Below are positions 12,185-48,493 of a stretch of DNA of 64,000 nucleotides, in pieces (positions within the stretch are counted from its first letter, which is position 1; every line of letters starts with the position of its first letter). A model generated the notes under the pieces. That model searched no databases. It was not told where the DNA came from and saw only the letters and a list, made by a program, of their open reading frames with translations. The stretch comes from Flavobacteriales bacterium (lineage in GTDB: Bacteria; Bacteroidota; Bacteroidia; Flavobacteriales_D; Sanyastnellaceae), in NCBI GenBank assembly GCA_022447625.1, contig JAKVAX010000003.1, forward strand, positions 124,001-188,000. Reading direction: 5' to 3'. The position numbers and the translations under genes were made by a program.

Positions 12185-12189
12185 CCAAA

Positions 12190-12216
12190 GAAAAGGCCTC
12201 CATCGGGAGGCCTCTT
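12190..12216 (-). terminator. Terminator of the marR-yceI operon
   Basis: AGGCCTCC (12194-12201) pairs with GGAGGCCT (12206-12213). On the minus strand it is followed by TTTTCTTT, so it mainly ends the minus-strand genes, although it lies between convergent genes. Confidence 0.75.
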
Positions 12217-12235
12217 ACTACCAAAACCAGATATG

Positions 12236-12850: not shown

Positions 12851-12890
12851 GTCTTTTGTTTTCGAGGGGGTTGTGTTGTTTCGAGTTTGA

Positions 12891-13355
12891 TTATTGAAAA
12901 GCGTCTCCGCTTCGAAGTTTGTCGAGGAGGTCGTTTAATTGAGCTGCCTCTTCTTTGTTTAATCCTTTAAATAGGTTGTCAACATCAGAGATGGTCACGT
13001 CGATCGCCTCTAAGAGGTCTAACCCTTTTTGTGTGATTCGAACTTCCGCTTGCCTACGGTCGCTCTCACACACTTGACGGTCGACGAGTCCTTTAATCCT
13101 GAGTTTTTCAACTAGCCTAGAAGTGTTTGAAGTCTGATCGATCATGCGTCCGCTAAGGTTGTTAACCCCGATAGGGTTCTCTTTTTGGCCTCGCAGGATA
13201 CGAAGTATGTTGTATTGTGGAACTGTTAGACCAAACTGGCGAAAGTAGCGCTGTTGATGTATATTCAGTGAACTTGAGGTGTACATCAAGTTAATCGCAA
13301 GCTTCACATATTCGTTCTGAAACTCCTTTTGCTGTATTGCGTCTTCAATTTTCAC
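12891..13355 (-). CDS. MarR family transcriptional regulator
   Basis: 154 residues from the GTG at 13355 (MKIEDAIQQKEFQNEYVKL); the open frame goes further up but would cross the likely promoter. The winged helix is seen in 'FGLTVPQYNILRILRGQ', the recognition region 'SGRMIDQTSNTSRLVEKLRIKGLV' and the wing 'ESDRRQAEVRITQKG'. The family represses genes until a small ligand binds. It heads the operon with yceI and is divergent from the MutS-like gene. Confidence 0.92.
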   Translation of the reverse strand: MKIEDAIQQKEFQNEYVKLAINLMYTSSSLNIHQQRYFRQFGLTVPQYNILRILRGQKENPIGVNNLSGRMIDQTSNTSRLVEKLRIKGLVDRQVCESDRRQAEVRITQKGLDLLEAIDVTISDVDNLFKGLNKEEAAQLNDLLDKLRSGDAFQ

Positions 13356-13359
13356 GCCA

Positions 13360-13367
13360 CAAATATA
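13360..13367 (-). promoter_or_regulatory. Bacteroidota -7 element TATATTTG before marR
   Basis: Minus-strand TATATTTG ends 4 bases before the GTG start, which would make a leaderless or nearly leaderless message. No TTG at the usual distance was found. Confidence 0.4.
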
Positions 13368-13371
13368 TGTC

Positions 13372-13412
13372 AACACAATAGATGTACATACATTAAATGT
13401 GTTAATAGATGT
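13372..13412. promoter_or_regulatory. Candidate MarR operator region
   Basis: The divergent promoter region holds ATGTACAT, the perfect palindrome ACATTAAATGT (13390-13400), outer arms AACACA (13372-13377) and TGTGTT (13398-13403), and the direct repeat AATAGATGT (13378-13386, 13404-13412). Such dyads beside a marR gene are usual autoregulatory sites; binding is inferred. Confidence 0.4.
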
Positions 13413-13466
13413 TTGGGATTGGATACCTACCATGTATTTTTTGATTCTTTCGCCAACAAGACCACC

Positions 13467-13474
13467 TATCTTTG
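13467..13474 (+). promoter_or_regulatory. Bacteroidota -7 element TATCTTTG
   Basis: TATCTTTG lies 4 bases before the ATG at 13479, with a T-rich TTTTTTG (13437-13443) 23 bases upstream as a possible -33 element. It supports 13479 as the true start of the MutS-like gene. Confidence 0.5.
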
Positions 13475-13478
13475 CCAC

Positions 13479-15251
13479 ATGAAAGCAGCGGAAGCTTACG
13501 ACATCATACAGAAAGAAGAGGGGAAGAAGGGAGATCAACTGAAGGTGAGAACGAACCTCATTGTGACCCTCCGTCTTTTATCTTTTTTCGGTTTCGTAGG
13601 GTTCATCTACCTCGCATTCACCATTTCTGAATGGATGATGCTTCCTATGCTGGCTTCCCTAATTGCCTTTCTCCTGTTAATTCGAGCGCATGGCAAGGCG
13701 CGTTTTTTACGTGATAAGGCGCTATCGCGGAAACGCATGGCTTCTCGGGAGCTTGAAATGTTAGCTGGCGACCTTTCATCATTTGATGGCGGACAGGCAC
13801 CACCTCCTGAACACAATTATGCCCAGGACCTAGATGTGTTTGGATCGAATTCACTCTATCAAGTGTTGAATCGTGCGTTCTCCCCAGGAGGTATCCGACG
13901 TGTGCGACAGCAGTTACTGGACGCTCCAGTGAAGCCAAGGGAAATGGCGGAGTGGCAAGAAGCTGCCAAGTCTTTGAGCAAGGAAGATGAGCATCGCATT
14001 GCAGTGATTGCTTCTGCTTCTCAATTAGACATCAAAGCGTCAACATTGGATTCGCTGATGACTTGGTTAGGAGAGAAGCAGACACGGAGTTTCCAATGGG
14101 TGAAGCCTTTTCTATACTCGGTTCCAGCATACAGCCTGGCGCTCATTATTCTGGCAAGTCTCTCGGTGATTACTGTCAACATGTGTATTCTCGGGCTGAT
14201 GCTTCCGTTAGGGCTCGTTGGTGCGAACCTCAAACACACCAATCACATCTACCAGGAACTGGGCAAGCAAGGTAAATCGTTGGAACAGCTGGCTGATCTG
14301 ATTGCTGAAGTCTGTGCCGGTGCTACTTCCGATGCGCGAAGTACGAAGATCAGAGAGGAGTTGACACAAGCAGAAGCTGCTTCTAGGAGATTAGCAACCC
14401 TCCTTTCTGCTTACGATCAACGAAACAACATCTTCGCATCCATCGTTACTAACGCGCTGTACTTAGCGGAGTTGAGAAACGCTTGGTTGGTCACGAAGTG
14501 GAAGAATACATACGGCAAGGAATTTCAAGACTGGCTGAACTCGCTTTCAGAATATGAACTCCTTGTGTCATTGGGAACCTTTGCGCGTAATCACGAAGGT
14601 TTGATTTGTTGGCCTGAATCCAATGCTAGCGCGGAAGTTGAAGGCGAGGCCCTAATTCACCCCTTACTCGCATTCAAAAAGGTGGTAGCGAATGATCTTT
14701 CGCTCACAAACGAGAAGAAAGTGGAGCTGATCACCGGAGCGAATATGGCAGGGAAAAGTACCTACCTCCGTACAGTGGGATTGTCTGTTTTGCTCGCTCA
14801 AATTGGAGCCCCAGTCTTGGGTAGCTCATTCAAGCTAGGAGATCTCCAACTATTCACCTCAATGCGCACCGAAGATGCTTTAGATAGCGGTACGTCGTGC
14901 TTCATGGCTGAGCTCAAGCGTCTGAATCGATTGGTGGAAACCATCGATGAAGATCAATGCACCTTCGCCTTGTTGGATGAGATCCTCAAGGGAACCAATT
15001 CCCTTGACAAAGAACAAGGCTCACGTGCCTTTATAGAAAAGCTCCTACAGCGCAATGTACGCGTGGTCGTAGCAACGCATGATGTTTCGTTGACAACCCT
15101 TGAGCAATCTTACCCAACTCAAATTGAGAATCATCATTTCGCAAGCGAGGTGAAAGGGGAAGACCTCACGTTCGATTACCGCATGCGCACTGGCGTATGT
15201 GATACCATGAATGCCACATGGCTAATGCGCTCCATGGGGCTCATTGATTAA
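13479..15251 (+). CDS. Membrane-associated MutS-like ATPase
   Basis: 590 residues from the ATG at 13479. Two transmembrane spans are near residues 30-70 (ILLSFFGFVGFIYLAF-like region) and two more near 205-245. A MutS-core-like helical part is followed by a MutS ATPase domain with Walker A 'GANMAGKSTYLRT' (about 424-436), 'SCFMAELKRLNRLV', Walker B 'FALLDEILKGT' and 'VVATHD'. It lacks the mismatch-binding and connector domains of true MutS, which is about 850 residues. Such membrane MutS paralogues are widespread in Bacteroidota with unknown roles; mismatch repair should not be assumed. Confidence 0.85.
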   Translation: MKAAEAYDIIQKEEGKKGDQLKVRTNLIVTLRLLSFFGFVGFIYLAFTISEWMMLPMLASLIAFLLLIRAHGKARFLRDKALSRKRMASRELEMLAGDLSSFDGGQAPPPEHNYAQDLDVFGSNSLYQVLNRAFSPGGIRRVRQQLLDAPVKPREMAEWQEAAKSLSKEDEHRIAVIASASQLDIKASTLDSLMTWLGEKQTRSFQWVKPFLYSVPAYSLALIILASLSVITVNMCILGLMLPLGLVGANLKHTNHIYQELGKQGKSLEQLADLIAEVCAGATSDARSTKIREELTQAEAASRRLATLLSAYDQRNNIFASIVTNALYLAELRNAWLVTKWKNTYGKEFQDWLNSLSEYELLVSLGTFARNHEGLICWPESNASAEVEGEALIHPLLAFKKVVANDLSLTNEKKVELITGANMAGKSTYLRTVGLSVLLAQIGAPVLGSSFKLGDLQLFTSMRTEDALDSGTSCFMAELKRLNRLVETIDEDQCTFALLDEILKGTNSLDKEQGSRAFIEKLLQRNVRVVVATHDVSLTTLEQSYPTQIENHHFASEVKGEDLTFDYRMRTGVCDTMNATWLMRSMGLID

Positions 15252-30157: not shown

Positions 30158-31618
30158 TCAGGCTGGCGTGTTGAGTGATTCGTTAACTACCTGCAGGTCA
30201 TCGAATGGGAAGCGTTCCCCTTTGATCTCCTGGTACTTTTCATGGCCCTTACCAGCCACAAGAATGATGTCTCCCTTTTGGGCAATCGAACAGGCCAATC
30301 GGATGGCCTCTTTGCGATCGGTAATGCTGAATGTTTTCGAGAGTTGAACTGGGTCCAACCCTTCTTTCATGTCGGTGATGATTTGATCTGGATTCTCGCT
30401 GCGTGGGTTGTCACTTGTGAGAATGACACGGTCAGAGAGTTCAGAAGAAATACGCGCCATGAGTGGTCGTTTTCCTTTGTCACGATCGCCTCCGCATCCC
30501 ACTACGGTGATCACTTGCTCATTCCCAGTGCGGATGTCTTTGATTGTGGCCAAGACATTCTTTAGTGCGTCAGGCGTATGAGCGTAATCGACGATAGCTG
30601 TCACTTCATTTTTCCCTTTCAGGTACTGGAATCGTCCGTCGACATTACCGAGCATGCTCATGTTGGTGAGCGTATCCATTTCGTCTTGATCCAGCTCCAT
30701 CGCTACAGCGTAAACTGCTAGCAGATTGTAGGCGTTGAAACCTCCGATCAACTTCGTGTAGAGATCTTTGCCATTGATGTTTATGTGCAAGCCGCTGAAC
30801 TGATTCTCAAGAATCTTAGCGCGGTAATCGCTCATCGTGCGCAAGCCGTAAGACAAGTGGCATCCACGGCAGTTCTGAAGCATGATTTCAGCGTGGTTGT
30901 CGTCGTTGTTTACCAGCGCAAACGACCCGCTTGGGAGCATGTCGAATAGACCTTTCTTCGCCTTGATGTAGTCGTTGAACGTCTTGTGGTAATCCAGATG
31001 GTCACGGGTGATGTTGGTGAACACGCCTCCGGCAAATTCAACGCCTGTTACACGGTGTTGGTGAATGGCATGAGAGCTGGCTTCCATAAAACAGAACTCA
31101 ATGCCCTGGTCTGCCATATCACGCAACATACGGTTGAGAGAAATGGCATCTGGAGTGGTGTGTGTAGCAACAACCTCAGTGTCGTTGATGCGATTCACCA
31201 CCGTACTCAATAGTCCAGTCTTCTTATTCATCAGACGGAATAATTGGTAGAGTAGGGTTACCGTCGTCGTCTTGCCATTGGTGCCGGTAACCGCAACTAC
31301 TTGTACTTCCTTGCTCGGATTGTCGTAGAAGTTTGCAGCGATGAAGCCTAGCGACTTTGCTGAGTCATCTACCTGAACGAATGTGATTTGCTCAGGACGA
31401 TCAGAAGGAAGCTCTTCGCAGATAATGGCGATGGCTCCAGACTTAATCGCAGATTCAATGTATTTATGACCATCTACTTGTGTTCCCTTCACGGCAACGA
31501 ATAGCGTACCACCTTTCACTTCACGACTATCAGCAGTGATGTGCTCGATCGTGATGTCCATCGGGCCAATCGCCTCGGTGAGACGGCATTTGTATAGTAT
31601 GTCTTTCAGAAGCTTCAT
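30158..31618 (-). CDS. murE: UDP-MurNAc-tripeptide synthetase
   Basis: 486 residues. Adds the third residue of the stem, expected to be meso-diaminopimelate: the 'SDNPRSENP' segment near residue 400 matches the DNPR motif of Dap-adding enzymes. '[20 protein letters not shown]' is the ATP loop (about 109-128), '[20 protein letters not shown]' carries the carbamylated Lys region. TGATG overlap with ftsI. murF, the next enzyme, is not in this cluster. Confidence 0.97.
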
Positions 31619-33726
31619 CAGGATAGTTCGATTCTGATTCGACGGTGATTTCTTATTGCGGCTCCCGCCGGAACGCTCTGTCGCTTCACGGTTCCGTAGC
31701 CTGAGACCTCTACTTGTAAGCCTGCGTTTTCTAGGAGGTAGAGGGCGTCTTGTAGCCCCATTCCGACCACATTCGGAATCAAACCGCGCGCTTGTTCGCG
31801 AGCGCCAAGTGCTACGTGGTCTTCTTTGGTTGATGTCTCAATCCAAGGGCTTTCGTTGTTGTCAGATGTTGGGATAGCTAAACCAGCAAACACACGTTCG
31901 AGGTCTTCACGGGCACCACTTCTCGATACCGGAAGTTTCGATTGGTCTCCAAGCAAAAGCTCAGGCTCCTGATTGTCGTGGAGTTCAAGCTGTGTGGCGT
32001 AGATTTTATCTGCGAGCCCTTTAAATACGGGAGCAGCAATAGCAGATCCGTAGTATACTCCACTACGTGGGTCGTTAACGACCACGATACAAGAGTACTT
32101 AGGGTTCTCAGCTGGAAAGAAGCCTACAAATGAGGCGCGGTAACGATTTTTGTAGTAACCACCTGAGTAGGCAATCTTCGCTGTTCCTGTTTTTCCAGCT
32201 ACTCGGTATGGACTGTCTTTAAAGATGTAATCAGCAGTACCGCCTTCTTCGCATACCCCTTGCATCATCTGCCAAGTCTTCTTCAGTGTAGAGCGTGAAC
32301 AGATGCGTTCTTGAAGAACAATCGGGTCATTGGTTTCAATGGTCTTGCCATTCCGCGTTAGCGACTCAACGAATTGAGGACGCATCAATGTTCCGCCATT
32401 GGCGATGGCATTGTAGAAGGCGAGGGTTTGAAGCGGTGTTTGCTGCACCTCATACCCAATCGACATCTGTGTCAGTGATAGTCCAGACCAGTTGCCTTCA
32501 CGTACCTTTTCGTAGATGAAGGGGTTCTTCTCGCCTTTGAGTCGGATGCCTAATGGCTGGCGAAGTCCCATGGCTGTGAGGTGATCGAGGAACTTCTGTG
32601 GTTGGTCTTTATAGTAGCGATCAACCAAGATGGCCGTTCCTACGTTGGAAGACTTCTCGAACACTTGTTCCACGCTAATCTTACCATAACCGTCTTCGTG
32701 CGAATCGCTCATCGGTTCATCGTAGAAGTAAACAACGCCATCTCCCGTGTCTACGCTGTCAGTGAGGTCAACATGGTTGTCCTCCAGCAAGCTGATAAGG
32801 CTAGCCAACTTGAATGTCGATCCGGTCTCAATCGATTGACCAATTCCGTAGTTATATGTTTCAGAATATCCTTCTTCGTCTTGATTTCGTGTGAGGTTCG
32901 CAATTGCACGGATGTAGCCTGTTTCTACCTCCATCAGGATGACAGTGCCCCATTCAGCATTGTGCTTGCGTAAGAGATTGTTGAGCTCGTTGCTGGCCAC
33001 ATCCTGAAGGTGTACGTCAATCGAAGAAATGATGTCTACGCCGTCAACTGGAGCTTCGATGTATTCGTCAGTAGCTGGCTTCCAAACGTTCCCAGCGATG
33101 CGCTCCATCAATTGTTTTCCTGTCTTTCCGGCGAGTTCTTCGTTGTAGGCTAGCTCTAGGCCCACGCGAGACCCCAATCGGTCGATTCCGATTGTACGTG
33201 AAGCGAGTTCGCCGAAAGGCTTTTTTCGGATGTCGATGCGTTCAAAAATGAATCCGCTTCGGTGTCTACCACGCTTGATGAAAGAGAACGTCTTAAGCTC
33301 TTTCATATCGGTATAGCTCATCTTCTTGACTACTCGGTAGTAGCGCTTTCCAAGACGTCTGGCTTCCAAAAGGTCCATGCGGTAGTCGCTTGGGGTGCGG
33401 TCTTGGAATTTTTCAGAAAGCTGGAGGCAAAGGGAATCCAGTTCAGTGACGAATGTGATCGAGTCAATGCCTGTAGCTTTTGAATCCCAGTAGAGGTTGT
33501 ATACCGGAACAGATGTGGCCAAAAGGCTACCGTCAGTGCTGTAGATTTGACCGCGCGTAGGCTCGATATCTTGCGTGCGTTGCTCAATGCTTTGGGCATG
33601 CTGCGCCCATTGATCAGCTTGGGCAAACTGAATCCAGAGGATTTTGCCGAAAATGGCAAAGGCCAACAAGGCAAAGGCGATAAACGCCATCCACGAACGG
33701 GTTGATATTTCCTTACTATTCTTCAA
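31618..33726 (-). CDS. ftsI: Septal class B penicillin-binding protein with PASTA domain
   Basis: 702 residues. One N-terminal transmembrane helix (WMAFIAFALLAFAIFGKILWI), a dimerisation/pedestal region and the transpeptidase domain: SxxK in 'GSTFKLASL' (Ser near residue 303), SxN in 'FEKSSNVGTA' and KTG in 'VAGKTGTAKIAY'. The last 60 or so residues are one PASTA domain ('LIPNVVGMGLQDALYLLENAGLQ'). Cross-links septal peptidoglycan with FtsW. Overlaps ftsL by 11 bases. A one-mismatch 15-bp word is at 32351-32365. Confidence 0.97.
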   Translation of the reverse strand: MKNSKEISTRSWMAFIAFALLAFAIFGKILWIQFAQADQWAQHAQSIEQRTQDIEPTRGQIYSTDGSLLATSVPVYNLYWDSKATGIDSITFVTELDSLCLQLSEKFQDRTPSDYRMDLLEARRLGKRYYRVVKKMSYTDMKELKTFSFIKRGRHRSGFIFERIDIRKKPFGELASRTIGIDRLGSRVGLELAYNEELAGKTGKQLMERIAGNVWKPATDEYIEAPVDGVDIISSIDVHLQDVASNELNNLLRKHNAEWGTVILMEVETGYIRAIANLTRNQDEEGYSETYNYGIGQSIETGSTFKLASLISLLEDNHVDLTDSVDTGDGVVYFYDEPMSDSHEDGYGKISVEQVFEKSSNVGTAILVDRYYKDQPQKFLDHLTAMGLRQPLGIRLKGEKNPFIYEKVREGNWSGLSLTQMSIGYEVQQTPLQTLAFYNAIANGGTLMRPQFVESLTRNGKTIETNDPIVLQERICSRSTLKKTWQMMQGVCEEGGTADYIFKDSPYRVAGKTGTAKIAYSGGYYKNRYRASFVGFFPAENPKYSCIVVVNDPRSGVYYGSAIAAPVFKGLADKIYATQLELHDNQEPELLLGDQSKLPVSRSGAREDLERVFAGLAIPTSDNNESPWIETSTKEDHVALGAREQARGLIPNVVGMGLQDALYLLENAGLQVEVSGYGTVKRQSVPAGAAIRNHRRIRIELS

Positions 33727-34108
33727 TTGACTTCGCGTCGAATTCGATAATAACTGGAGGAGCGGTTGGCTCTACTAGTCCGAGTGATGAGATGGCTTGC
33801 GCTACGGAGCTCTGTTGCTTTTTTGCTTCGAGCTCGCTCTTTAGTGTTTTGTACTCTGCGCTGAGTTCTTGCAATTGGCGTTCAACACGAATCTTTTCTC
33901 GTTCAGTGTTTTCGAAGACGTATCCGATGTAGATCGACAGCAAGAAGAATGTGCACACGTACAGCACAAATGGGAGGTGTGCTGTCACGCTTTCCTTTGT
34001 TAGGAATTCTCCGCTCAACACGTTGGTGACGAGGCGGGAGAATCTTCCCCTAGACTTTTTGGCCGGCGCTTGCTGTTCTTCGTTAGGTGTCGCTAGTCGG
34101 TTCTTCAT
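33716..34108 (-). CDS. ftsL: FtsL-like division protein
   Basis: 130 residues. A basic cytoplasmic tail (KKSRGRFSRL), one transmembrane span (FVLYVCTFFLLSIYIGYVF) and a coiled-coil stretch (EREKIRVERQLQELSAEYKTLKSELEAK) give the FtsL layout. Position between rsmH and ftsI and the 4-base overlap with rsmH support the call, as FtsL is too variable to judge by sequence alone. It would bridge FtsQ to FtsW/FtsI. Confidence 0.85.
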   Translation of the reverse strand: MKNRLATPNEEQQAPAKKSRGRFSRLVTNVLSGEFLTKESVTAHLPFVLYVCTFFLLSIYIGYVFENTEREKIRVERQLQELSAEYKTLKSELEAKKQQSSVAQAISSLGLVEPTAPPVIIEFDAKSIEE

Positions 34109-35010
34109 ATGCGTTCCGCAATGCGGAGTCGTGCACTTCGTGCTCGGTTATTCTTTTCTATTTCTTCTTCGTCGGCAACGATGGCGCTACGAGAGATGAC
34201 TTTCCATGGGGTGATTGGATTTCCGTAGAAGTCTTTCTTGACTTCGCCTTGGAAATTGCCGGCACGCATGTAGCGCTTCACCATTCTGTCTTCAAGGCTG
34301 TGGTAGGAGATGACTGAGAGTCGACCGCTAGGTTTGAGTAGCGCTTCAGTCTGTGCCAGGAATTCTTCCAGTGCCTTCATCTCGTCATTGACTTCGATGC
34401 GCAGCGCTTGGTAAACCTGAGCCTGAAACTTGTGTGCTTTGATCGCAGGGGCGAATGGTTGCAGCACTTTGTTCAGGTCGCCTGTGGTTTTGAAGCCTTC
34501 CTCGTTGCGGAATTTGAGAATGGCGCGAACAACGCGTCCGGCTTGTCTCACTTCACCATAGGTTTTCAGGATCCTGATGAGGTCTCCCTCTTCGTATTCG
34601 TTGAGAATACTCGCTGCGGACTTGGTGCCGCTTTGAGACATTCGCATATCAAGAGGAGCGTCGAAACGAAGAGAGAATCCGCGTTCAGCGGCGTCGAATT
34701 GATGGGAGCTTACGCCGAGGTCAGCCAGAATTCCATCAACTTCAGTTACGCCATACATGCGCAGGAAATTCCGCATGTAGCGGAAGTTCTGTGGGATGAG
34801 GGTGAAGCGGTCATCTTCGGGAGCATTATCCTGAGCATCAGGGTCTTGGTCGAATGCGAAGAGTTTTCCTTGGTCCAGTCTTGTCAAAATCTCTCGTGAG
34901 TGCCCACCTCCTCCGAAGGTGACATCCACGTAGACCCCGTTTGGGTCGATGTCGAGTGCGTCTATTGAAGCATGGAGTAGAACGGGTACGTGGTAATCGC
35001 GCTCTTCCAT
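34105..35010 (-). CDS. rsmH: 16S rRNA m4C1402 methyltransferase RsmH
   Basis: 301 residues. SAM-dependent N4-methylation of C1402 in 16S rRNA. 'HVPVLLHASIDAL' and 'YVDVTFGGGGHSREIL' (about 29-44) are the start and SAM-binding loop, 'GILADLGVSSHQFD' and 'ISYHSLEDRMVKRYMR' later family motifs. Second gene of the division cluster, 8 bases after mraZ; formerly mraW. Confidence 0.98.
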   Translation of the reverse strand: MEERDYHVPVLLHASIDALDIDPNGVYVDVTFGGGGHSREILTRLDQGKLFAFDQDPDAQDNAPEDDRFTLIPQNFRYMRNFLRMYGVTEVDGILADLGVSSHQFDAAERGFSLRFDAPLDMRMSQSGTKSAASILNEYEEGDLIRILKTYGEVRQAGRVVRAILKFRNEEGFKTTGDLNKVLQPFAPAIKAHKFQAQVYQALRIEVNDEMKALEEFLAQTEALLKPSGRLSVISYHSLEDRMVKRYMRAGNFQGEVKKDFYGNPITPWKVISRSAIVADEEEIEKNNRARSARLRIAERI

Positions 35011-35018
35011 GTTCTTAT

Positions 35019-35504
35019 CTAGTTGAGTGGAAAGCCAGGGCCTTCGATCTGCCCTCTGATGTCGTCAGCGATATCGCCGAAGTCATCATCGTCATTCAAT
35101 ACTGATTCGTCGTAGCGGTCAACGCTCCACAGTTCCATCTTCTCAAGCACTCCGGTGAGTACCATTTCGTTTTTGCCGCCAGGCTCGATGCCGGCGTACT
35201 TCAATAATGAAGCTGGGATCAGCATTCTGCCTGCGCTATCGAGTTCGATGAGGGTAGCCCCTTTCATGAACTTTCGCTGAAAGGCTTGGTGCTTTCTATT
35301 GTAGCGACTCAGTCTGCTCATCTCTTGGTTGACCTTGTCCCATTCAGGTTTCGGGTACAAGACCAAACACTGTTCGAAAATGTCACGGTTGAGCACGAGA
35401 CCGTGGTGCAACACAGGTTCTAACTGTTTCCGAAGCTTCGCTGGAAACATGAGCCTGCCTTTGGCATCCACTTTACATCCGTATTCCCCGAGGAGATTGA
35501 GCAT
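35019..35504 (-). CDS. mraZ: Transcriptional regulator MraZ
   Basis: 161 residues with two AbrB-like MraZ half-domains: 'GEYGCKVDAKGRLMFPAKLRKQL' (7-29) and 'ATLIELDSAGRMLIPASLLKYAG' (83-105), both with the DxxGR signature. MraZ binds short direct repeats before its own gene and controls the division cluster in other bacteria. The matching repeats lie 38-73 bases upstream. First gene of the minus-strand cluster. Confidence 0.97.
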   Translation of the reverse strand: MLNLLGEYGCKVDAKGRLMFPAKLRKQLEPVLHHGLVLNRDIFEQCLVLYPKPEWDKVNQEMSRLSRYNRKHQAFQRKFMKGATLIELDSAGRMLIPASLLKYAGIEPGGKNEMVLTGVLEKMELWSVDRYDESVLNDDDDFGDIADDIRGQIEGPGFPLN

Positions 35505-37250: not shown

Positions 37251-40200
37251 TTACATCTTGATCACCTTAAAGCACTTCTGGTCAGTTTGCGTATAGCAAC
37301 GAACCAAATAGGTGCCCGAGCCTTGACCTTCTAGAGACAGGGTGGCACGCGTGCTTGCTCCACTTACAATAGAACTGGTTTCGATGATTCGACCGAGGTG
37401 GTCGTAGACTTCAATTTTGATTGTTTGTGTGGCGTAAGAGCTGATCTCTACATTGAATAGGTTGTCTGTAGGGTTCGGGTAGATTTTAATCTCTTCCGAG
37501 AAGTCTCCCTGCGTCTCTTCAACGTTGACCTCATCCTCAATCAAAATCGGTACATCAAGTTCAAATGCGCAAACTCCAGTAGCATCTTCCACCACCACGT
37601 TGTATGGTCCGATGGGAAGATCGGTGAAGAGGTTTGTGTCAAAGAATGTTTGTCCTCCATCAATGCTGTACTGATAGGGGGCAACACCTGAAGTCGGGTT
37701 GATTTCAATCGAGCCGTCTGTAGTTACTGCAGAGGAAGCATTGACCGTGATGACATCAGCGGTTGTGAATTCACACGCTTGAATAGAAACTACCTCTTCA
37801 TAGCTACACAACCCAGTTGCTCCAACCACTACCACAGTGTATTCGCCAGGTGGGAGATCAGTAAATGAGTTTTCAGTGCTGAATGTTTGTCCACCGTCAA
37901 TACTGTATTCGAACGGACTCACCCCTGAACTCGTGTAGATTGTAATAGATCCGTCGTTCGCAGAAGTCGAACTAGTGTTCGAAATGGATAGGTCAGCAGT
38001 GATGGTGCAACCTGTTTCATTCGGACAAAAGACTTCAACCACTTCAAAGTCGAATTCACCATTGTTAAATACGATGACTTCTCCTTCCGCGTTCAATACC
38101 TGGAAGTCTCCTTCTCCATAAGCGCAGCAGATTCCGTCGCCGTATGAATCATAGAAGTACACCGAGAAGCACGAGCCGTAGTTCACACAAATGTCTTCGC
38201 TGTAGTACTCGTCACCATTATTTAATGCTCCTGTAGAAACAATTTGTCCAGTAGTTTCATCTTCGATTTTCCATGAAGTCTCTTGAGGATAATCGTCTGC
38301 ATTGATGATGAATGTAATGATGTCGTAATTCGATTCTAGATTGGTGGTGACAGACGCAGAGTTATTTGCCAGATCTAGGTCGTTCTCATCATTCACAGTG
38401 ATAATGTTGAGCTCAATGTCGTTATCCATCTCCTCCAAATTGTCATCAATGGAGACCGTAAGCTCTTCGCTTTCTTGGTACGGGATTTCGACATTGAAAT
38501 CAACCAGATCAACTACTAGGCCGTTGGCAATCACTTCAATTTGCACCTCTGTTATCATTGATTCACCTACGTTCGTAACGAGTGCTTTCACCTCTAGAAT
38601 GTCATCACATACGGCTTCCGTTTCGGTAATCGCTAGGGCTCCGTTCAATGCGTATAGATTGCTCAACACCACATTTAGGGTGTCGTTGTTTCCATACTCG
38701 TCATCCGGATCACTTACGATTGTTTGGATGTCATAATCTCCCACAAAAGACAGGTCAATTGGTACCGTGAATTGGAAGTTGGCCTCGTTAAATGGATGGA
38801 TGGAATCTGTAATGAAAATCGTCTCCATTGATTCGCCATCAACGACAAGTTCGATGTCGAAATCGTACATCATGTTTAGTCCTTGATTCGCAATCGTAGC
38901 GGTTACTAGCTCTTCGCTTCCTAGGGAAGAAGAAGACTGAGGTTCCACCACAGCTTCCGCGCCAAGGTCATTGTTCCCTTTGATGTCAGCCCAGAATGAT
39001 ACCCAAGGTCTCGCCTGTTTGATGGCCAGTTGTTCCTGAGCAGTCACCTTGTATTCGATGTCCATCCCAAATCCATCCACACCTTCGACCCCATAAAGAA
39101 TCGCAAACTCATCATGAATTACTGTGAGGTAGTCTCGCATTTGGTCTAGGTATTCCTGGTCCATCACTAGCTCCCCTTGGTTAACTAAGTTCGAGAGTGC
39201 TAGTACCAAATACCCACCTGCCTCTTCAGGATCTTGGTAAAGCAGAATCTCCTCTGGAACCGAGTTAGGGTCAGGATTGGTGATAAGCGACTCGCCAACT
39301 TGAGTGTTCAAGTAATACGTGCTATCGGTATCGTAAATAGGATCGATACTGATCCCTACACCATTCGACTGTTCCTCTTGGAAATTAGGGTGACATAACA
39401 CGCCCATCGCGGCTTGGAAGTGATCTACGCGGTAAAAGTCTCTTTCTTCATATGCTCGGAAATTCCACATACTCGCATACACCTGTTTGATCGACTTTTG
39501 AATGTGCCCTTCATCGAGGTGCTGCGTCTTCGACGTGTATAATCCAGCACCGCTGAAACCAGGTAAGTCTTCATTGTTAGTACTTGAACGACAGCGAACA
39601 GCGGTTCCTTCTGGGAAAGCGTCGTGCATCGCTTGCAATTCATCTAACATCCAATCCGGCATCGGTGCCGCTTTAATGTCATCTCTAAATTCATCCAAAC
39701 GTTCGATGCGGAAGTTAATGTCGTTCTGGAACGACGGATTGTCAATCATGACTTGTGCTTCTTCGTAGAAGTTGTTGAACTGCATGAATTCATCGTAGAA
39801 ATAGAATGGGATTCCGAATCCATCCGGAATGGTTCCTTCTGAGAAACCAAAGGTTCTCATCGTAGCTACGTTTGAACATTTAGCTCCGAAAGCAGAAGAC
39901 ATATCAAACTCAATATCGTCCAATGGTATGATCTCCGTAATGCTCAAATCCCGCACTGGAATTTGAGGTTCCGTCGGACGTAAATCTTCATACCAAGCGT
40001 TCACCTCGTCCAAGGTGGCTTCTCTGAACTGGAAGGTTTCGTTCTCTGCTTTGTAGTAAACGTAGCTACCCAGGAGATTCGCAATGGAATCAATAGAGAG
40101 TGGATCAGTGATGTATGCATTCGGGACATTATCCTGAATCGCGCGCAAGTTTACGTGTGACAGCGGTGTCTGAACTACCGAAGTAATGATCCCTCCCACG

Positions 40201-41198
40201 CGAGGAAGTGAGTTTGGAAGCTGATCATAAAGCACAATGTCTCGTGAACCAGGTGTCTCATCAAGACTCATGTGTCGGAAAAATCCGTATCCCTCTGCTT
40301 CATGGAATGGGATGTAATTAATGTCAGCAAATACGTCTGACTCCAGCACCACGTCAAAGTTGGCGTCTTCGTATTGATCAGCGTAGTTGTTGAGGTAATT
40401 GTTTTCAGAACCCTGGCCAATGAAGTGGTTCATGTTGTTCTGAAGGAAAGGCATGTTGGCAATGAGGAGCTCATACGTTCGTTGAGCATCTTCAAAATTA
40501 TAAGCGTTTCCGAAAGAAAAGTTGAAGGAGTAACTACCAATGACTCCATTAGGCAAAATGTCATTGGCATTGAAAACGATTTCTCCCGAACCGTCGTCTC
40601 CATCTACCGTAGCTCCAATAGCTCCCCAGAATCCAGCGTGGATGACGTGAGTGTTACTGTTAATGAAGTACACTTTTGGTTCGTCGGTGTCGCGATCAAG
40701 AATGCCAAACTTGACATATAGCTGTCCGTCAAGGAAGGGAGCCCAGCCAACGTTATTGATTGTTGCCAGGTCCATGAATGTCTGGGCATCTGGAATGGAA
40801 GTGGTTCCATCTTCAAAGTCAACTGCGTAGGCGTTATTGATCGGCGCGTCGGTAGGCATATTCGAGAATTCCGTGATATCGTCAATTCCATCGCCGTCCC
40901 AATCATCAGGGTCAGCAATGTCATGTTCGGTAATGGTGTAATTCTCCAACGGATAGGCAGCACCAGGTGCCGCAATGATCATGGTTCCGTCTACACCGAT
41001 GGTCATAGAAACAGCCCAATTGTAATCCGGACCGTGTTGAGCATGCAAGATGTAGTATTTGTCAGCTTCACCTTGAATAGAAAGCTGAGCTTGACCAATG
41101 GTATTTACAGAGTAATTGTCAATGTCAACAGTCTGAGCAGAGCAAAAGCTCACTGATGAAATCATACAAATAAGAGAAAGGACGATTCTCAATTTCAT
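37251..41198 (-). CDS. T9SS-secreted dikinase-like protein (phosphohistidine + PPDK-type ATP domain)
   Basis: 1315 residues with a signal peptide (MKLRIVLSLICMISSVSFCSAQ). Order: an N-terminal region with a Ca-binding-like 'DPDDWDGDGIDDITEF'; a mobile phosphohistidine-like domain with 'VVQTPLSHVNLRAI' (His near residue 348); a PPDK/PEP-synthase-type ATP domain (about 430-735) with 'AVRCRSSTNNEDLPGFSGAG' and 'IKQARPW'; CARDB-like and 'YFYDSYGDGICC' modules; two near-identical 'PYQYSIDGGQTF' repeats; and a type A T9SS tail ('IKIYPNPTDNLFN'). The His-before-ATP-domain order resembles glucan, water dikinases, and no PEP-binding barrel is seen. The activity outside the cell is unknown. Not in an evident operon. 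Confidence 0.88.
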   Translation of the reverse strand: MKLRIVLSLICMISSVSFCSAQTVDIDNYSVNTIGQAQLSIQGEADKYYILHAQHGPDYNWAVSMTIGVDGTMIIAAPGAAYPLENYTITEHDIADPDDWDGDGIDDITEFSNMPTDAPINNAYAVDFEDGTTSIPDAQTFMDLATINNVGWAPFLDGQLYVKFGILDRDTDEPKVYFINSNTHVIHAGFWGAIGATVDGDDGSGEIVFNANDILPNGVIGSYSFNFSFGNAYNFEDAQRTYELLIANMPFLQNNMNHFIGQGSENNYLNNYADQYEDANFDVVLESDVFADINYIPFHEAEGYGFFRHMSLDETPGSRDIVLYDQLPNSLPRVGGIITSVVQTPLSHVNLRAIQDNVPNAYITDPLSIDSIANLLGSYVYYKAENETFQFREATLDEVNAWYEDLRPTEPQIPVRDLSITEIIPLDDIEFDMSSAFGAKCSNVATMRTFGFSEGTIPDGFGIPFYFYDEFMQFNNFYEEAQVMIDNPSFQNDINFRIERLDEFRDDIKAAPMPDWMLDELQAMHDAFPEGTAVRCRSSTNNEDLPGFSGAGLYTSKTQHLDEGHIQKSIKQVYASMWNFRAYEERDFYRVDHFQAAMGVLCHPNFQEEQSNGVGISIDPIYDTDSTYYLNTQVGESLITNPDPNSVPEEILLYQDPEEAGGYLVLALSNLVNQGELVMDQEYLDQMRDYLTVIHDEFAILYGVEGVDGFGMDIEYKVTAQEQLAIKQARPWVSFWADIKGNNDLGAEAVVEPQSSSSLGSEELVTATIANQGLNMMYDFDIELVVDGESMETIFITDSIHPFNEANFQFTVPIDLSFVGDYDIQTIVSDPDDEYGNNDTLNVVLSNLYALNGALAITETEAVCDDILEVKALVTNVGESMITEVQIEVIANGLVVDLVDFNVEIPYQESEELTVSIDDNLEEMDNDIELNIITVNDENDLDLANNSASVTTNLESNYDIITFIINADDYPQETSWKIEDETTGQIVSTGALNNGDEYYSEDICVNYGSCFSVYFYDSYGDGICCAYGEGDFQVLNAEGEVIVFNNGEFDFEVVEVFCPNETGCTITADLSISNTSSTSANDGSITIYTSSGVSPFEYSIDGGQTFSTENSFTDLPPGEYTVVVVGATGLCSYEEVVSIQACEFTTADVITVNASSAVTTDGSIEINPTSGVAPYQYSIDGGQTFFDTNLFTDLPIGPYNVVVEDATGVCAFELDVPILIEDEVNVEETQGDFSEEIKIYPNPTDNLFNVEISSYATQTIKIEVYDHLGRIIETSSIVSGASTRATLSLEGQGSGTYLVRCYTQTDQKCFKVIKM

Positions 41199-41229
41199 TT
41201 CCAGGATATTTTGGTTTCAATGCTAAGAT

Positions 41230-41237
41230 CAAAAATA
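41230..41237 (-). promoter_or_regulatory. -7 element TATTTTTG before the dikinase-like gene
   Basis: Minus-strand TATTTTTG matches TAnnTTTG, 31 bases before the ATG at 41198. No -33 TTG at the usual spacing. Confidence 0.4.
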
Positions 41238-41305
41238 CCCTGCAGAATAGCTAGTCAGCTTTCTTGCAATTCTTTCCGGCCTAAGAGGAAAAGGAGAGCG
41301 ATTCG

Positions 41306-41839
41306 TTATTCACAGCTAAAAGCAGTGTGAAAGACATGAAGCCTACCGCTTTCCTTGTGAATCACTACTTGATAGATACGATTGTAGATACTCTCATCAA
41401 ATGCCCCGAGTTCTTCCCCTACGAGCAGTCCGGCAAGAACAGCTGTAGTATTGCTATGTCCAACTACAAGAGCGTCTTCTTTATTCTGAATCAATGTGCT
41501 CGCGAATTCCGATAAGGCACGTGGGTCATAGCTTTCAATAGACATAGACTTAATATCAGCTGTTGGTTGGGCGGTGCTTTTCGTTCGGCTGTATTCGGTG
41601 CTGTATATAGCGTCAAGCTCAATATGACTTAAGAATTGGCTAATCATCTCAGAACGCTCTTCACCACAAGGAGTCAGGGGAGGATCGGAGGGGTTCGAAG
41701 AGTTCAAGTCCTTCTCAGCGTGGCGAACCAGGTAAATAGTAAAGATCTCTTCGTTTTCTTGATTATCTGGTGTCATTCTAAACCCCAGAACAACCACGAC
41801 TCCAACGAGCAGTGATATGGTGATGATTCTATTTCGCAT
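41306..41839 (-). CDS. Histidine phosphatase (SixA-like), membrane-anchored
   Basis: 177 residues. An N-terminal hydrophobic helix (IITISLLVGVVVVLGF) acts as an anchor or signal. The phosphatase core has 'YLVRHAEKD' (RHG-type catalytic His, about 37-45), 'IYSTEYSRTKSTAQP' and 'ALVVGHSNTTAVLAG' (second His). Short length fits SixA-like enzymes, which remove phosphate from phosphohistidine or small molecules. It faces the periplasm if the helix anchors it. It lies 5' of the dikinase-like gene on the same strand, an attractive but unproven phosphohistidine pairing. Confidence 0.88.
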   Translation of the reverse strand: MRNRIITISLLVGVVVVLGFRMTPDNQENEEIFTIYLVRHAEKDLNSSNPSDPPLTPCGEERSEMISQFLSHIELDAIYSTEYSRTKSTAQPTADIKSMSIESYDPRALSEFASTLIQNKEDALVVGHSNTTAVLAGLLVGEELGAFDESIYNRIYQVVIHKESGRLHVFHTAFSCE

Positions 41840-42207
41840 AACAGTTGTCTTTTTCTGCGCGCCTTAGTCAAGGAACACAAGGATTTCCGCAATATCGTCG
41901 GTTTCATGAATTACTCAAACTTTTCTTTCCGACCAACATCTGAATCTTTCGTGTTCTTCGGTGGCGTAGCAGGCGGGCGCAATTATGCGTCCCTCTCGTG
42001 ATCATCCTGAGGATGTAGACGGTGGATGCATTCTTGCATCCACCCCTCCATTCTCATTCTTAATATAAATCTTCCTCTTCCTCTTCCTCTTCCTCTCGCT
42101 CTTCCTCTCCTCTCACCGTCCATACATTTCCACCAGCAGAATTCGTTACGCTGTTCTATATTGTGTCCGTTAGAATGAAGTCTAGCTATTGACCAAACCT
42201 CCTATTT
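41840..42207. repeat. Repeat-rich intergenic region
   Basis: No gene seen. It contains an imperfect hairpin GGGCGCAATTATGCGTCC (about 41975-41992), a perfect 10-bp hairpin GGTGGATGCA-TTCT-TGCATCCACC (42021-42044), a CATTCTCATTCTTAA stretch (42049) and a CTTCCT microsatellite (about 42071-42112). The last 90 bases lead to the VPS10/BNR gene without an evident promoter match. Confidence 0.7.
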
Positions 42208-45200
42208 ATGAAATTCAAGTTTCTCATCCTTGCGCTAGCTGTGCTCTTCGCTTCAGCAGACGCAGTAGCTCAAAAAAAGAAGAAAGGTTCAAAGAATGCC
42301 GACACTGAATACTGGCTCAACTCTGGTCAGATAAGTGGTTTGCAGTTCCGTAATATCGGTCCGGCGTTGACCTCGGGAAGGGTAGCTGACATAGCTGTTA
42401 ATCCTGATAATTTCAATGAATACTACGTTGCTGTAGCGTCTGGAGGTGTTTGGAAAACAAGCAATCACGGGGTGAGTTACACGCCGATTTTTGACGGAGA
42501 AGGTTCATACTCTGTGGGTTGTGTGGCCATTGATCCAAACCAATGCTCTACGATTTGGGTTGGGACTGGGGAGAATAACAACCAACGCTCTGTTGCCTAC
42601 GGTGACGGTGTTTACAAGTCTACGGACGGAGGTAAGTCTTGGGAGCACATGGGGTTGAAAGACTCTGAGCACATTTCGAAGATCATCGTTGATCCGCGCA
42701 ATTCTGACGTGGTGTATGTAGCAGCTTACGGACCACTTTGGTCTGATGGTGGCGATCGCGGTGTCTACAAAACCACAGATGGTGGTGAGAATTGGGAACA
42801 GATTCATTTTATCTCCGAAAAGACAGGAACCTGTGATTTGATCATGGATCCATCGAATCCAGATATCCTCTATGAAGCCGTTCATCAGCGCCGTCGCCAT
42901 GTCTTTACTTACATCGGTGGAGGTCCGGAAAGCTCAGTGTATAAGTCGATGGATGGAGGAATGACTTGGAAAGAGATGACCAGTGGACTTCCAGCGGGAA
43001 AGATGGGGCGCGTAGGTTTGGCGGTTTCTCCTGTTGATCCTAATGTGGTTTACGCTATCGCGGAAGCGGAAGAAGGTAGTGCGGGGTTCTTCCGTTCAAC
43101 CAATAAGGGAGCTACTTGGGAGAAACGTAGTAGCTACGTGACTTCAGGAAACTACTACCAAGAGATCATCTGTGATCCGCACGATGTAGATAAGGTCTTC
43201 AGTATGGCAACTTGGTTACACCATACTGAAGATGGAGGGAAAACATTCATCCCCACAGGCGAATCGCAAAAGCATGTTGATAACCACTGCATTTGGATTA
43301 ACCCTACCAATACTGATCACTGGATTGTAGGTTGTGATGGGGGTATCTATGAAACCTATGACCATGCCAATACTTGGGAGTACAAAGCGAACCTGCCGAT
43401 TACTCAATTCTACAAGGTGTCGATCGATTACGACGAGCCTTTCTATAACGTTTTCGGGGGTACCCAAGACAACAACTCACAAGGAGGTCCATCGCGTACG
43501 ATCAATAATGCTGGTATCCTAAATTCTGATTGGTACATCACCGTTGGAGGTGATGGATACGAAACACAGGTAGACCCAACCAACCCGAACATCATCTATG
43601 CGCAATGGCAGTATGGTGGCTTAATTCGATTCGATCGCCAATCAGGTGAGCGTATTGGAATCAAACCTCAGCCAGGGAAAGGTGAAGCAGCATATCGCTG
43701 GAACTGGGATTCCCCACTTTTGATTTCACCACATGATCCGAAGACACTCTTCTTCTGTGCAAACAAAGTGTTCAAGACCACTGACCGTGGAAATAGCTGG
43801 GAGACCATTTCTCCAGACTTGACACGCCAACTTGACCGAAACAAGATGAAGGTGATGGGAGAGGTGCAGTCTCCAGATGTGGTCATGAAGAACAAGTCAA
43901 CAACCATCTACGGTAATATCGTAGCATTCGATCAATCGCCGCTTGATGAAAACCTCTTGTATGCTGGTACGGATGACGGACTAGTTCAGGTTTCTCATGA
44001 TGGAGGGGCCACTTGGAGCAAGAAAGAATCGTTCCCAGGAGTACCAAACCTGACTTACGTGAATATGCTTTGGGCGTCACAACACGACAAGAACGTGGTT
44101 TATGCAGCCTTCAATAACCATAAAAAGGGTGACTTTAAGCCTTACCTACTTAAGAGCACGGACAAAGGGGATACATGGACGGCCATTCAGAATGACCTTC
44201 CTGAACGTGGAACAGTGTATTCTGTAGCAGAAGACCACGTAGATGGTAATCTCCTTTTTGCAGGAACGGAGTTTGGCTGCTACGTAAGTGTGAATGGAGG
44301 TAAGAATTGGGTAGAACTTTCAGCTGGATTGCCAACGATCTGTGTGCGAGATATGGCCATCCAGAAACGAGAAAACGACCTCGTTCTCGGAACCTTCGGT
44401 CGTGGATTCTATGTGTTGGATGATTACTCACCACTTCGCAACCTCACAGAGGCTTCACTAGAAGCCGATGCTAAGATTTTCCCAATAAAGGATGCTCTCG
44501 CTTACGTTGAATCAAACCCTCTCGGACTACGCGGAACGGGAAGTCAAGGTGCTTCCATGTATGCAGCGCCTAACCCTGAGTTTGGAGCGACCTTCACTTA
44601 CTTCGTGAAAGAAACACCCAAGTCTCCGAAGGCACAACGTCAAGAGAAAGAGAAAGAAGACAAAGAGGCTGGACGTACCATCGACTACCCAAGCTATGAG
44701 GAGTTCGTTGCAGAGGATAATTACGAAGACGCTTACCTACTGTTCTTAGTCAAGGATGCTGCAGGAAACGAAATGCGAAAAATGAAGCGTTCGGCGTCTA
44801 CAGGTTTGCAACGTGCTACGTGGAACCTACGTTATCCAGCCACAACACCAATTCGCACAAGTTCTGGTGAAGTAGGCCGCTACAGCAATCCAGATGAAGG
44901 GCCATTGGTTCTTCCGGGAACCTACACGGTTGAGATTTGGATGGTAGATAATGGAGTGTTCACCTCCTTGGCAGCTCCAGAGAGTTTCAACGTGAAGGCA
45001 CTTGAGAACTCTACGCTTGACCGCCAGACGGAAGCAAACATCGCCTTCAAGAAGGAAGTACAAGAACTCCGCCGTAGAATGCGCGGAAGCTTGAATGAGC
45101 ACTCAGATCTTGACAATCGTTTGCGTCACATCAAGGCGGTTATTCAAAGTTACCCAGGAGCGGATATTGCTTGGATGGAAGATGTGAAGAAGCTAGAGAG

Positions 45201-46976: not shown

Positions 46977-47309
46977 TCATTTATTCGGCTGAAGATTCAT
47001 CTTCTCTGCGTAATAATCGCAGAAGTCGCGCATTGTAGCCGCCATTTTATCTTCTCCGGTAGCACGTTCAAAGCTGTCAGCAAGGGTTAAGATGGTTTGG
47101 TGGACGAAGAACTTCATTTCTTCCACCTCCATTTGCTTGTCCCATAGGTCAATGCGCAGCGTGTTGCGTTCATCCTTGTCCCACATGGCAAGGATCATGG
47201 CCTTTGCTTCCTTATTGATCACATTCGCTTGAGGTGCAGACCAAATGATCTGTTCAGGTACTTTGTTTTCGTCGGTAGTAACGTTGATCTCAATCTTAGA
47301 AGAGTCCAT
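46977..47309 (-). CDS. gldC: Gliding motility protein GldC
   Basis: 110 residues. 'SKIEINVTTDENKVPEQIIWSAPQ' and 'TLRIDLWDKQMEVEEMKFFVHQTILTLADSFERAT' match GldC of gliding Bacteroidota. No signal peptide. GldC supports gliding together with the lipoprotein GldB; its biochemical role is not known. It starts directly at the gldB stop (shared base 47309). Confidence 0.9.
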   Translation of the reverse strand: MDSSKIEINVTTDENKVPEQIIWSAPQANVINKEAKAMILAMWDKDERNTLRIDLWDKQMEVEEMKFFVHQTILTLADSFERATGEDKMAATMRDFCDYYAEKMNLQPNK

Positions 47310-48334
47310 TATCCTGGTCTGTATGCGTTGAGTAATTTTAAATAATTCGTTTCCTGAAGTAATTGTTCAGGGGTGACCTCATTGTTACGCTCCATGTAAT
47401 CGCGGATGACTTGCCAGCCGATCCACATACCGAGGCGTGAAGGAGATTCTTGAGGTACACTTTGAGCGCTGGTGAACGGACCGTCATTTACCCAGCGATA
47501 AATCTCAAACTTGCGCTTTTCGTAAAGGATATCTTGTTGTGAAAAGGCAGCCCATAGGTTTCGCTCGTTGGCTTGGCACCATGCAATTTCATCTGGAGTA
47601 TAGTTGATCTTTTGCCCATCAGTCAGCTCAGGAAAAGTGACATCCATTAAGTACAGAATCTTCCCCCAATACATCACCGTTGAGAGGAGGTCACTATCGT
47701 CATAATACTGGTGCTGAAAATGAACGGCTAGCCAACCTCGCATGGCATCTCCTACCAAAAACTCAGGGGCCATTTTCTTGCGGATGTAGTTAGGGAAGGT
47801 ATTCTCATCCAAGCTTTGTGTGATGTGGTGCTCTGTTCCCAAATACCATTCCTGTCCTACCGCTAAGTGTGTTTCAGTAGGGAAGATTCCATAGTTGAAT
47901 CCACTGTTCATGAAGACAACTTGGGGCGCAGGTGTTTCTGGAAAGAAGTAACGCATACGTCGGAATGCCTTATCCAGTTGATCAATGCGTTCTGCTTGTC
48001 CGGGACCGAGGACGGCAGAGACTTCTGTGTTGATTTCACTAATCGTAGGGTCAGTCATAAACTGAGCAATCTTTCCGAGGGTTGCAGGATCATCAAAAGC
48101 ACCTTCACGCAAGATAGACTCGGTATAGTCTCTCCAGAAAGATCCTAAGCTTTGGTACAGTTGTTGGTTTATTTCTTCCGCGTTAGCGAGATCAAATTGC
48201 TGCAGCGAATCATTGAGTGCATAGAAATCGCACTGTTGATCAATGTTAGAAATGTCTGCTTCACGCACGCCCTCATCGCAGGAGATGAACAGCATAGTGG
48301 TGAAGAACCCGAGTGTGATAAGCCGTTTGAGCAT
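47309..48334 (-). CDS. gldB: Gliding motility lipoprotein GldB
   Basis: 341 residues from the ATG at 48334, which places a lipobox (TMLFISC) correctly after MLKRLITLGFFTTMLFISC; the open frame reaches 48427. Later blocks 'VVFMNSGFNYGIFPTETHLAVGQEWYLG' and 'RLGMWIGWQVIRDYMERNNEVTPEQLL' resemble the GldB family, which has remote similarity to M1-type zinc peptidases. GldB is required for gliding and cell viability in Flavobacterium. A one-mismatch 15-bp word (48176-48190) codes LANAE. Confidence 0.9.
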   Translation of the reverse strand: MLKRLITLGFFTTMLFISCDEGVREADISNIDQQCDFYALNDSLQQFDLANAEEINQQLYQSLGSFWRDYTESILREGAFDDPATLGKIAQFMTDPTISEINTEVSAVLGPGQAERIDQLDKAFRRMRYFFPETPAPQVVFMNSGFNYGIFPTETHLAVGQEWYLGTEHHITQSLDENTFPNYIRKKMAPEFLVGDAMRGWLAVHFQHQYYDDSDLLSTVMYWGKILYLMDVTFPELTDGQKINYTPDEIAWCQANERNLWAAFSQQDILYEKRKFEIYRWVNDGPFTSAQSVPQESPSRLGMWIGWQVIRDYMERNNEVTPEQLLQETNYLKLLNAYRPG

Positions 48335-48354
48335 ATGAAAAATTGGTAGCTTTG
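48326..48354 (+). promoter_or_regulatory. Possible promoter TTTG-N17-TAGCTTTG
   Basis: TTTG (48326-48329) and TAGCTTTG (48347-48354) have the right spacing for a plus-strand Bacteroidota promoter. It overlaps the gldB start and would give the barrel-protein gene a leader of about 130 bases. Confidence 0.35.
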
Positions 48355-48493
48355 ACGCCAACCGAAGGATATAAGAACTGAACGAATCAGAAACGCCAAA
48401 ATTATGAATATGCTTCGAGATAGACATTTATTCCTTGAATGGATGACTTTTTTGAAGGGTTAACGTCATAATCACGGTAAAAACAACAACACG

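Follow-up and report, generated by a model that had tools for sequence, protein, structure and literature searches.

A predicted extracellular dikinase with plant-like domain order and a linked exported phosphatase gene in Flavobacteriales

In the plant dikinases GWD (glucan, water dikinase) and PWD, a phosphohistidine domain precedes the ATP domain, and the starch-binding module is of the CBM45 or CBM20 type. The characterized members of this dikinase superfamily are, to our knowledge, cytoplasmic or plastid enzymes, and we know of no exported rifampin phosphotransferase (RPH). According to the portions of the papers that cover these points, plant GWD carries its dikinase domain at the C-terminus (PMC6805951), the phosphatase SEX4 acts on the product of the plant dikinases (PMC12892837), and RPH is ordered as an ATP-grasp domain, a rifampin-binding domain, and a C-terminal His domain (PMC4844700). 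Here we describe a gene at 37251..41198 on the minus strand of a 64,000-nucleotide stretch of a Flavobacteriales bacterium genome (the window, which lies on contig C23; the genome totals 3.9 Mb) that encodes a dikinase-like protein predicted to leave the cell through the type IX secretion system (T9SS). As in GWD and PWD, its phosphohistidine domain lies before a more C-terminal PPDK-type ATP domain; unlike them, the protein is bacterial and exported. The seven Pfam families listed for it at E values up to 10 include neither a phosphoenolpyruvate (PEP) barrel nor a carbohydrate-binding module, such as a starch-binding one. RPH has the same ATP ligands but the reverse domain order, and searches of the window protein did not turn up the RPH substrate domain. 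PEP synthase and PPDK share the ATP-grasp domain and phosphohistidine chemistry but run in the order ATP, His, and pyruvate domain and are not exported in this way. A literature search limited to open-access papers gave no description of an exported dikinase among the matches listed, which does not establish absence from print. We think it probable, with some reserve, that this protein is secreted, acts as a catalytically competent two-step dikinase, and is paired with an exported phosphatase in a phosphorylation/dephosphorylation cycle.

A single open reading frame (ORF) with an ATG start spans exactly 37251-41198 and encodes 1315 amino acids; all features below lie on the same minus strand. 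The product begins with a signal peptide assigned by eye (residues 1–21, cleavage after FCSA; 41136..41198) and a weakly matched fibronectin-III-like beta sandwich (residues 22–100; 40899..41135), followed by a family-specific domain (residues 101–291; 40326..40898). Next come a phosphohistidine swivel domain (residues 292–394; 40017..40325), recognized from the likeness of its predicted fold to RPH, and an ATP-grasp domain (residues 419–741; 38976..39944), within which Pfam PPDK_N covers residues 436–732 (39003-39893; E 9.7e-20, 71.5 bits, cut-off 27). The swivel domain contains the motif TPLSHVNLRA, whose His348 (codon 40155..40157) is the predicted phospho-carrier; we take TPLSHV to resemble the GWD motif. 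Beyond the core lie a CARDB repeat (residues 755–834; 38697..38936; Pfam, E 4.9e-5), a SprB repeat (residues 1159–1184; 37647..37724; Pfam, SprB repeats E 3.5e-9), and a T9SS C-terminal sorting domain (Por_Secre_tail, residues 1239–1312; 37263..37484; E 4.7e-12, 46.5 bits, cut-off 27). Among NCBIfam models, TIGR04183 matches the tail, and PEP synthase models match the ATP domain only, far below cut-off. Given the PPDK_N match over cut-off and the retained ATP ligands and carrier His, the protein belongs to the PPDK-type ATP-grasp/phosphohistidine superfamily. The original prediction had proposed a phosphohistidine motif at this His, a PPDK-type ATP domain behind it in the manner of GWD, and no PEP barrel, all of which the domain searches and the predicted fold together bear out.

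Structure prediction had been suggested as a check on this layout. An AlphaFold model of residues 21–742, built on 48 aligned sequences, has a mean pLDDT of 86.6, and its ten Foldseek matches at E ≤ 0.001 are entries for RPH, PEP synthase, PPDK, and HpeI, which we take to be a dikinase relative. When compared with RPH bound to AMPPNP (5hv1) in VIA-align, the ATP-grasp domain gives Z 28.7 (rmsd 2.4, 293 residues aligned, 17% identity), tied with PEP synthase 2ols at Z 28.2. The His domain of the window protein has no Pfam match over cut-off, and its assignment rests on conservation and on the fold: model residues 272–374 align with residues 754–867 of RPH (5fbu), a segment that contains His825, at Z 10.0 and rmsd 2.8 over 97 residues. 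The model thus supports both domains as first read, His before ATP. Residues 21–291 are also well modeled (pLDDT 93.4) and have no PDB match at E 0.001. VIA-align places mostly fibronectin-III-like and receptor matches on the first 80 of these residues, the best being the adhesin SiiE (Z 5.9). Residues 101–291 were hardly probed by this match list, and we do not claim a new fold for them. This stretch, which is well modeled, has no listed structural match, and contains an invariant His187 and a nearly invariant Asn180, is the likely candidate for an acceptor-binding domain.

We then consider whether the active site is intact. A collection scan confirmed at least 519 relatives, of which the best 80 loci were examined; these, the window protein, and seven proteins from a search of the phylum make up a set of 88 sequences. 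The motif R[SA]S[TA]N.ED served to select the ORFs (one was present at 80/80 loci), and the peptide seeds of the scan included the His motif. Because this set was partly chosen by motif, we repeated the count on 28 relatives (L130–L157) from a whole-protein search without motif selection. In the portion of PMC4844700 that treats the RPH active site, Lys22, Arg117, and Thr136 bind phosphates, Glu297 binds metal, and His825 carries the phosphate. On our reading of the profile alignment, the first four align with Lys440, Arg537, Ser556, and Glu715, and the fold places His348 as the equivalent of His825. His348, Lys440, Arg537, and Ser556 are kept in 88/88 sequences, and Glu715, Gln728, and Arg730 in 86/86, with two gaps. 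The recount agrees: His348 is present in 27/27 (one gap) and the six ATP-grasp residues in 28/28. Arg505 is kept in 88/88 and 27/28. In the N-terminal domain, His187 is found in 86/86 and 24/24 sequences and Asn180 in 85/86 and 23/24, gaps and X set aside. Across ten relatives, identity to the window protein is 74–90% over the His and ATP domains, compared with 40–61% over the stretch between the core and the sorting domain, indicating that constraint sits on the catalytic core rather than on the surface tail. Catalysis therefore looks retained in these sequences. The agreement of domain match, predicted fold, and unchanged catalytic residues in relatives leads us to judge the observation to be beyond chance.

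The domain order is that of GWD, but the profile and module searches give no support for placing the protein in the GWD family. The GWD1_pHisD profile scores 12.2 bits against the window protein (E 0.14), below its cut-off of 27, and no carbohydrate-binding module was found with it. The signal recurs weakly, with 21/48 aligned sequences matching at E ≤ 1 (best 0.0042). A search for GWD homologues in 395 Bacteroidota genomes with PF22973 found none over cut-off and a single sub-threshold match with three stops inside, but controls gave no match either, so that absence is not shown.

The original prediction placed the protein outside the cell on the strength of its signal peptide and T9SS tail, and both recur in relatives. 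Complete ORFs were obtained for 65/80 loci (831–1570 aa as cut by a script that also set their starts, some lengths, as for L053 and L041, being off). Por_Secre_tail matches the last 110 residues in 65/65 of these at E ≤ 0.001, and a strongly hydrophobic stretch lies within the first 40 residues in 63/65, one of which (L053) was counted on a mis-set start. The window genome has 150 scored T9SS tails among 211 candidates, so the export route very likely exists. With a Por_Secre_tail over cut-off at its C-terminus and other cargo in the genome, the dikinase is a T9SS cargo as far as its sequence signals indicate. The part between core and tail is variable; the 830-aa relative L004 passes almost directly from one to the other. 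In L033, a lamin-tail domain (residues 1226–1335) precedes the T9SS tail, and L044 and L049 look alike by eye.

The original prediction passed over the conserved neighbor of the dikinase, as it did the wider set of exported His-first proteins described below. An exported protein of 177 aa belonging to the histidine phosphatase superfamily is encoded 107 bases upstream on the same strand (41306..41839, minus). It begins with a hydrophobic signal (by eye) and matches Pfam His_Phos_1 (E 5.7e-14, 52.7 bits, cut-off 21.7). In histidine phosphatases, residues of the types Arg39, His40, Arg85, and His128 have catalytic roles. Arg39 and His40 are kept in 38/39 partner sequences, the remaining one (L037) being an N-terminally short ORF, and Arg85 and His128 in 39/39. 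On the basis of His_Phos_1, the RH motif, the second Arg, and the second His, we assign the partner to branch 1 of the superfamily. It shares His_Phos_1 with SixA and other branch-1 enzymes, matches the NCBIfam models for SixA (27.3 bits) and alpha-ribazole phosphatase (35.8 bits), and differs in being exported. Because it falls below every NCBIfam equivalog cut-off listed, no specific function, whether phosphohistidine phosphatase or product phosphatase, can be named. We presume its family to be different from that of SEX4. Cys58 and Cys176 of the partner are kept in 38 and 39 of 39 sequences and may form a disulphide in the exported protein.

Linkage of the two genes was examined by tblastn of 12 window proteins against the 80 loci, with flanks of up to 10 kb and often shorter. 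The partner lies near 42/80 loci. Among the 50 most window-like loci (L033–L080, L109, L110), 43 have at least 900 bases upstream, and 39/43 of these have the partner, which in two cases sits downstream in the opposite orientation; a stricter count that demands an ORF and a gap of less than 700 bases gives 35/43. Other window neighbors were tried as partners, and only the phosphatase recurs; the remaining matches at the 80 loci are a sortilin-like protein (8, scattered), ORF 45540 (2), an alpha/beta hydrolase (1), and ORF 46977 (1). We also scanned 199 genomes of the order, 39 of which contain a dikinase match at E ≤ 1e-20. Window-type dikinases, defined as the long type with at least 80% identity over the core, occur in 22/199. 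The partner at E ≤ 1e-49 occurs in 21 genomes, all inside these 22 (only G570 is without it), and in 0/177 others. Twenty of the 21 pairs are on one contig (13 upstream on the same strand, six downstream and convergent, one downstream on the same strand), and one is on separate contigs. The persistence of linkage in several gene arrangements argues for a shared function. The coupling of a window-type dikinase to an exported phosphatase gene is new here.

The closest relatives among the matches listed come from Flavobacteriales, Flavobacteriaceae, Crocinitomicaceae, Saprospiraceae, and Bacteroidetes bacteria, mostly metagenome assemblies. A search of the phylum gave a match at E ≤ 1e-5 in 41/296 genomes, PEP-synthase-like proteins included. 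A comparison of homologues had been proposed for the domain order, and the relatives that were read in all three groups, A, B, and C, have His before ATP. Group B proteins (~630 aa) consist of a signal peptide (by eye), an N-domain, and the His and ATP domains, and where they overlap the window protein they are 23–26% identical to it (four aligned); group C proteins (~970 aa) have a signal peptide (by eye) and a long N-part before the two domains, with 20–24% identity over the core (ten aligned). In a tree of 41 ATP domains, with fragments L020 and L032 left out, a branch supported at 100/98 sets groups A (the window type, 14), B (6), and C (10) apart from 11 others. These 11 are ten PEP-synthase-like enzymes (by eye) and, on a long branch, an RPH-like protein of the window genome. 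The unrooted tree shows a consistent split of the exported His-before-ATP groups and does not prove a single origin. The second PPDK_N protein of the window genome (G000 C76:7979-8650, L001) looks rifampin-phosphotransferase-like by eye, with the ATP domain first and a long middle part.

Both sister groups have neighbors of their own. At 6/6 group B loci, a DUF4956 membrane protein gene is convergent with the dikinase (Pfam run on two, L117 10995-11549 and L119 9206-9763). At 8/9 group C loci, the dikinase gene is followed in the same orientation by a gene for a beta-lactamase-fold hydrolase, at distances of 4 to 4069 bases (median 7), and another such gene lies on the other strand 1.3–4.2 kb away, also at 8/9; Pfam was run on the L126 copies only. 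Near these hydrolase genes, clustering finds a 940-aa membrane protein at 6/9 loci. The N-part of the L126 copy (11989-14811) matches the TLC ATP/ADP carrier family (52.4 bits, cut-off 21), and HEAT repeats are present; the L128 copy has no TLC match at E ≤ 0.01. Within the 296 genomes, group C (E ≤ 1e-60) is found in 10, a carrier-like relative (E ≤ 1e-30) in 14, and both in 9 (Fisher 4.6e-13, relatives not being independent). By coordinates, 7/10 group C dikinases have the carrier-like gene within ~1.5 kb. This association in group C is a hint that a carrier may bring ATP through the inner membrane to exported dikinases. A lipoprotein-like histidine-phosphatase relative (L128 16076-16585) lies ~5 kb from a 970-aa type dikinase at one of nine such loci.

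In the cycle that we favor, the dikinase would be exported by Sec and then by the type IX system. By analogy with the chemistry of PPDK, PEP synthase, and RPH, its ATP-grasp domain would bind ATP, and His348 of the swivel domain would take the beta-phosphate as ATP is converted to AMP and Pi. The swivel domain would then swing away and pass the phosphate on to an extracytoplasmic acceptor, which may be held by the family-specific N-terminal domain. The partner could reverse this modification or reset the phosphohistidine, and the two proteins would thereby run a cycle of phosphorylation and dephosphorylation within the envelope or on the cell surface. As the acceptor, we would guess at a glycan or some other polymer of the surface, given the GWD analogy, the weak but repeated GWD1_pHisD signal, and the surface repeats.

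Several observations weigh against this reading. Free ATP is scarce outside cells. The whole-model pTM of 0.68 leaves the packing of the domains uncertain. The glycan acceptor is only a guess because no carbohydrate-binding module was found, and PEP-utilizers, while matching fewer of the aligned sequences than GWD1_pHisD does (10/48), has the better best E value (0.00066). The partner was not found beside the other 30, less similar loci of the 80, nor in any of seven genomes with the 830-aa dikinase type, and a weaker partner relative at E ≤ 1e-5 occurs in 13/177 genomes without a window-type dikinase. The Fisher value for co-occurrence of dikinase and partner (1.8e-27) is overstated, as relatives are not independent. 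In the same scan of the order, the dikinase is missing from two genomes of the genus to which the window belongs. The partner has no T9SS tail and several copies look lipoprotein-like by eye, so it may occupy another compartment. Finally, the conservation of Glu715 says little: replacement of Glu297 in RPH did not abolish activity, as stated in the part of PMC4844700 that describes the variants.

The export signals and intact active sites in a set of dikinases imply an extracytoplasmic use of ATP in a defined phosphorylation. With the conserved gene for an exported phosphatase alongside, this suggests that there are bacteria which add phosphate to a target beyond the cell, perhaps much as plants do with starch. 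A broader proposal, which is possible but which we hold to be doubtful, is that an ATP-driven cycle operates outside the cytoplasm of Bacteroidota on a polymer of the surface or the environment: the T9SS-secreted dikinase would add phosphate, the linked exported phosphatase would remove it, and sister enzymes would be fed by a dedicated ATP/ADP carrier. If true, this would be a bacterial, out-of-cell counterpart of the plant cycle of GWD and phosphoglucan phosphatase. The links to an exported phosphatase and, in the sister group, to a carrier-like gene make the questions of substrate and ATP source directly testable.

The sister groups also bear on where the enzyme acts. It may work in the periplasm and be sorted to the surface by its T9SS tail only later, or it may use a phosphate donor other than ATP. 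Groups B and C begin with signal peptides by eye and the three of their proteins that were scanned (L005, L009, and L015; two from group B and one from group C) have no T9SS tail, so they are probably periplasmic, and group C keeps company with the carrier-like gene in nine of its ten genomes. We nevertheless regard this account as unlikely for the window type, which keeps its T9SS tail in every complete ORF and in whose own genome no ATP/ADP-carrier match was found, although controls gave no match either; that finding also counts against the cycle that we favor.

Somewhat less probable is that the protein is an extracellular ATP scavenger, in which the phosphohistidine is simply hydrolyzed: the pair would break ATP down to AMP and phosphate so that phosphorus or nucleotides can be taken up, with the phosphatase cleaving the remainder. 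A phosphatase-superfamily gene is indeed the most frequent neighbor of the window-type dikinase, and variants of RPH that no longer phosphorylate rifampin retained their ATP pyrophosphatase activity, according to the section of PMC4844700 on these variants. Against this account, simple nucleotidases would do the same job more cheaply, and the conserved N-terminal domain, with His187 and Asn180, suggests a defined acceptor.

Another account has the protein act extracellularly on a small molecule, for instance a toxic natural product, as RPH does on rifampin. Both domains have RPH among their best structural matches, and the patchy distribution of the dikinase (22/199 genomes of the order) fits an accessory trait. 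We consider this improbable, and marginally more so than scavenging, because the RPH substrate domain is missing from the matches and the surface repeats and T9SS tail would better fit a polymer or surface acceptor. The weakest account is that the protein no longer catalyzes anything and only binds nucleotides at the surface, the original prediction having raised a binding protein without catalysis; the scarcity of external ATP and the adhesin-like repeats would suit it, but the invariance of the tested ATP ligands and phospho-carrier His and a core more conserved than the repeats make it very unlikely.

Returning to the favored pair of dikinase and phosphatase, the rest of the window adds context. 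A scan of 41100-42300 for promoters and terminators gave none; it used a sigma-70 consensus, which is ill-suited to Bacteroidota. MraZ, RsmH, FtsL, FtsI, EngB, GldB, and ORF 48494 (names by eye except GldB) matched at 0/80 loci, and since these neighbors do not recur with the dikinase, its location next to cell-division genes is incidental. Those genes form a cluster at 31618-35504 of MraZ, RsmH, FtsL-like, and penicillin-binding FtsI-like genes (names by eye), and on the other side of the dikinase a GldB gliding lipoprotein is encoded at 47309-48427.

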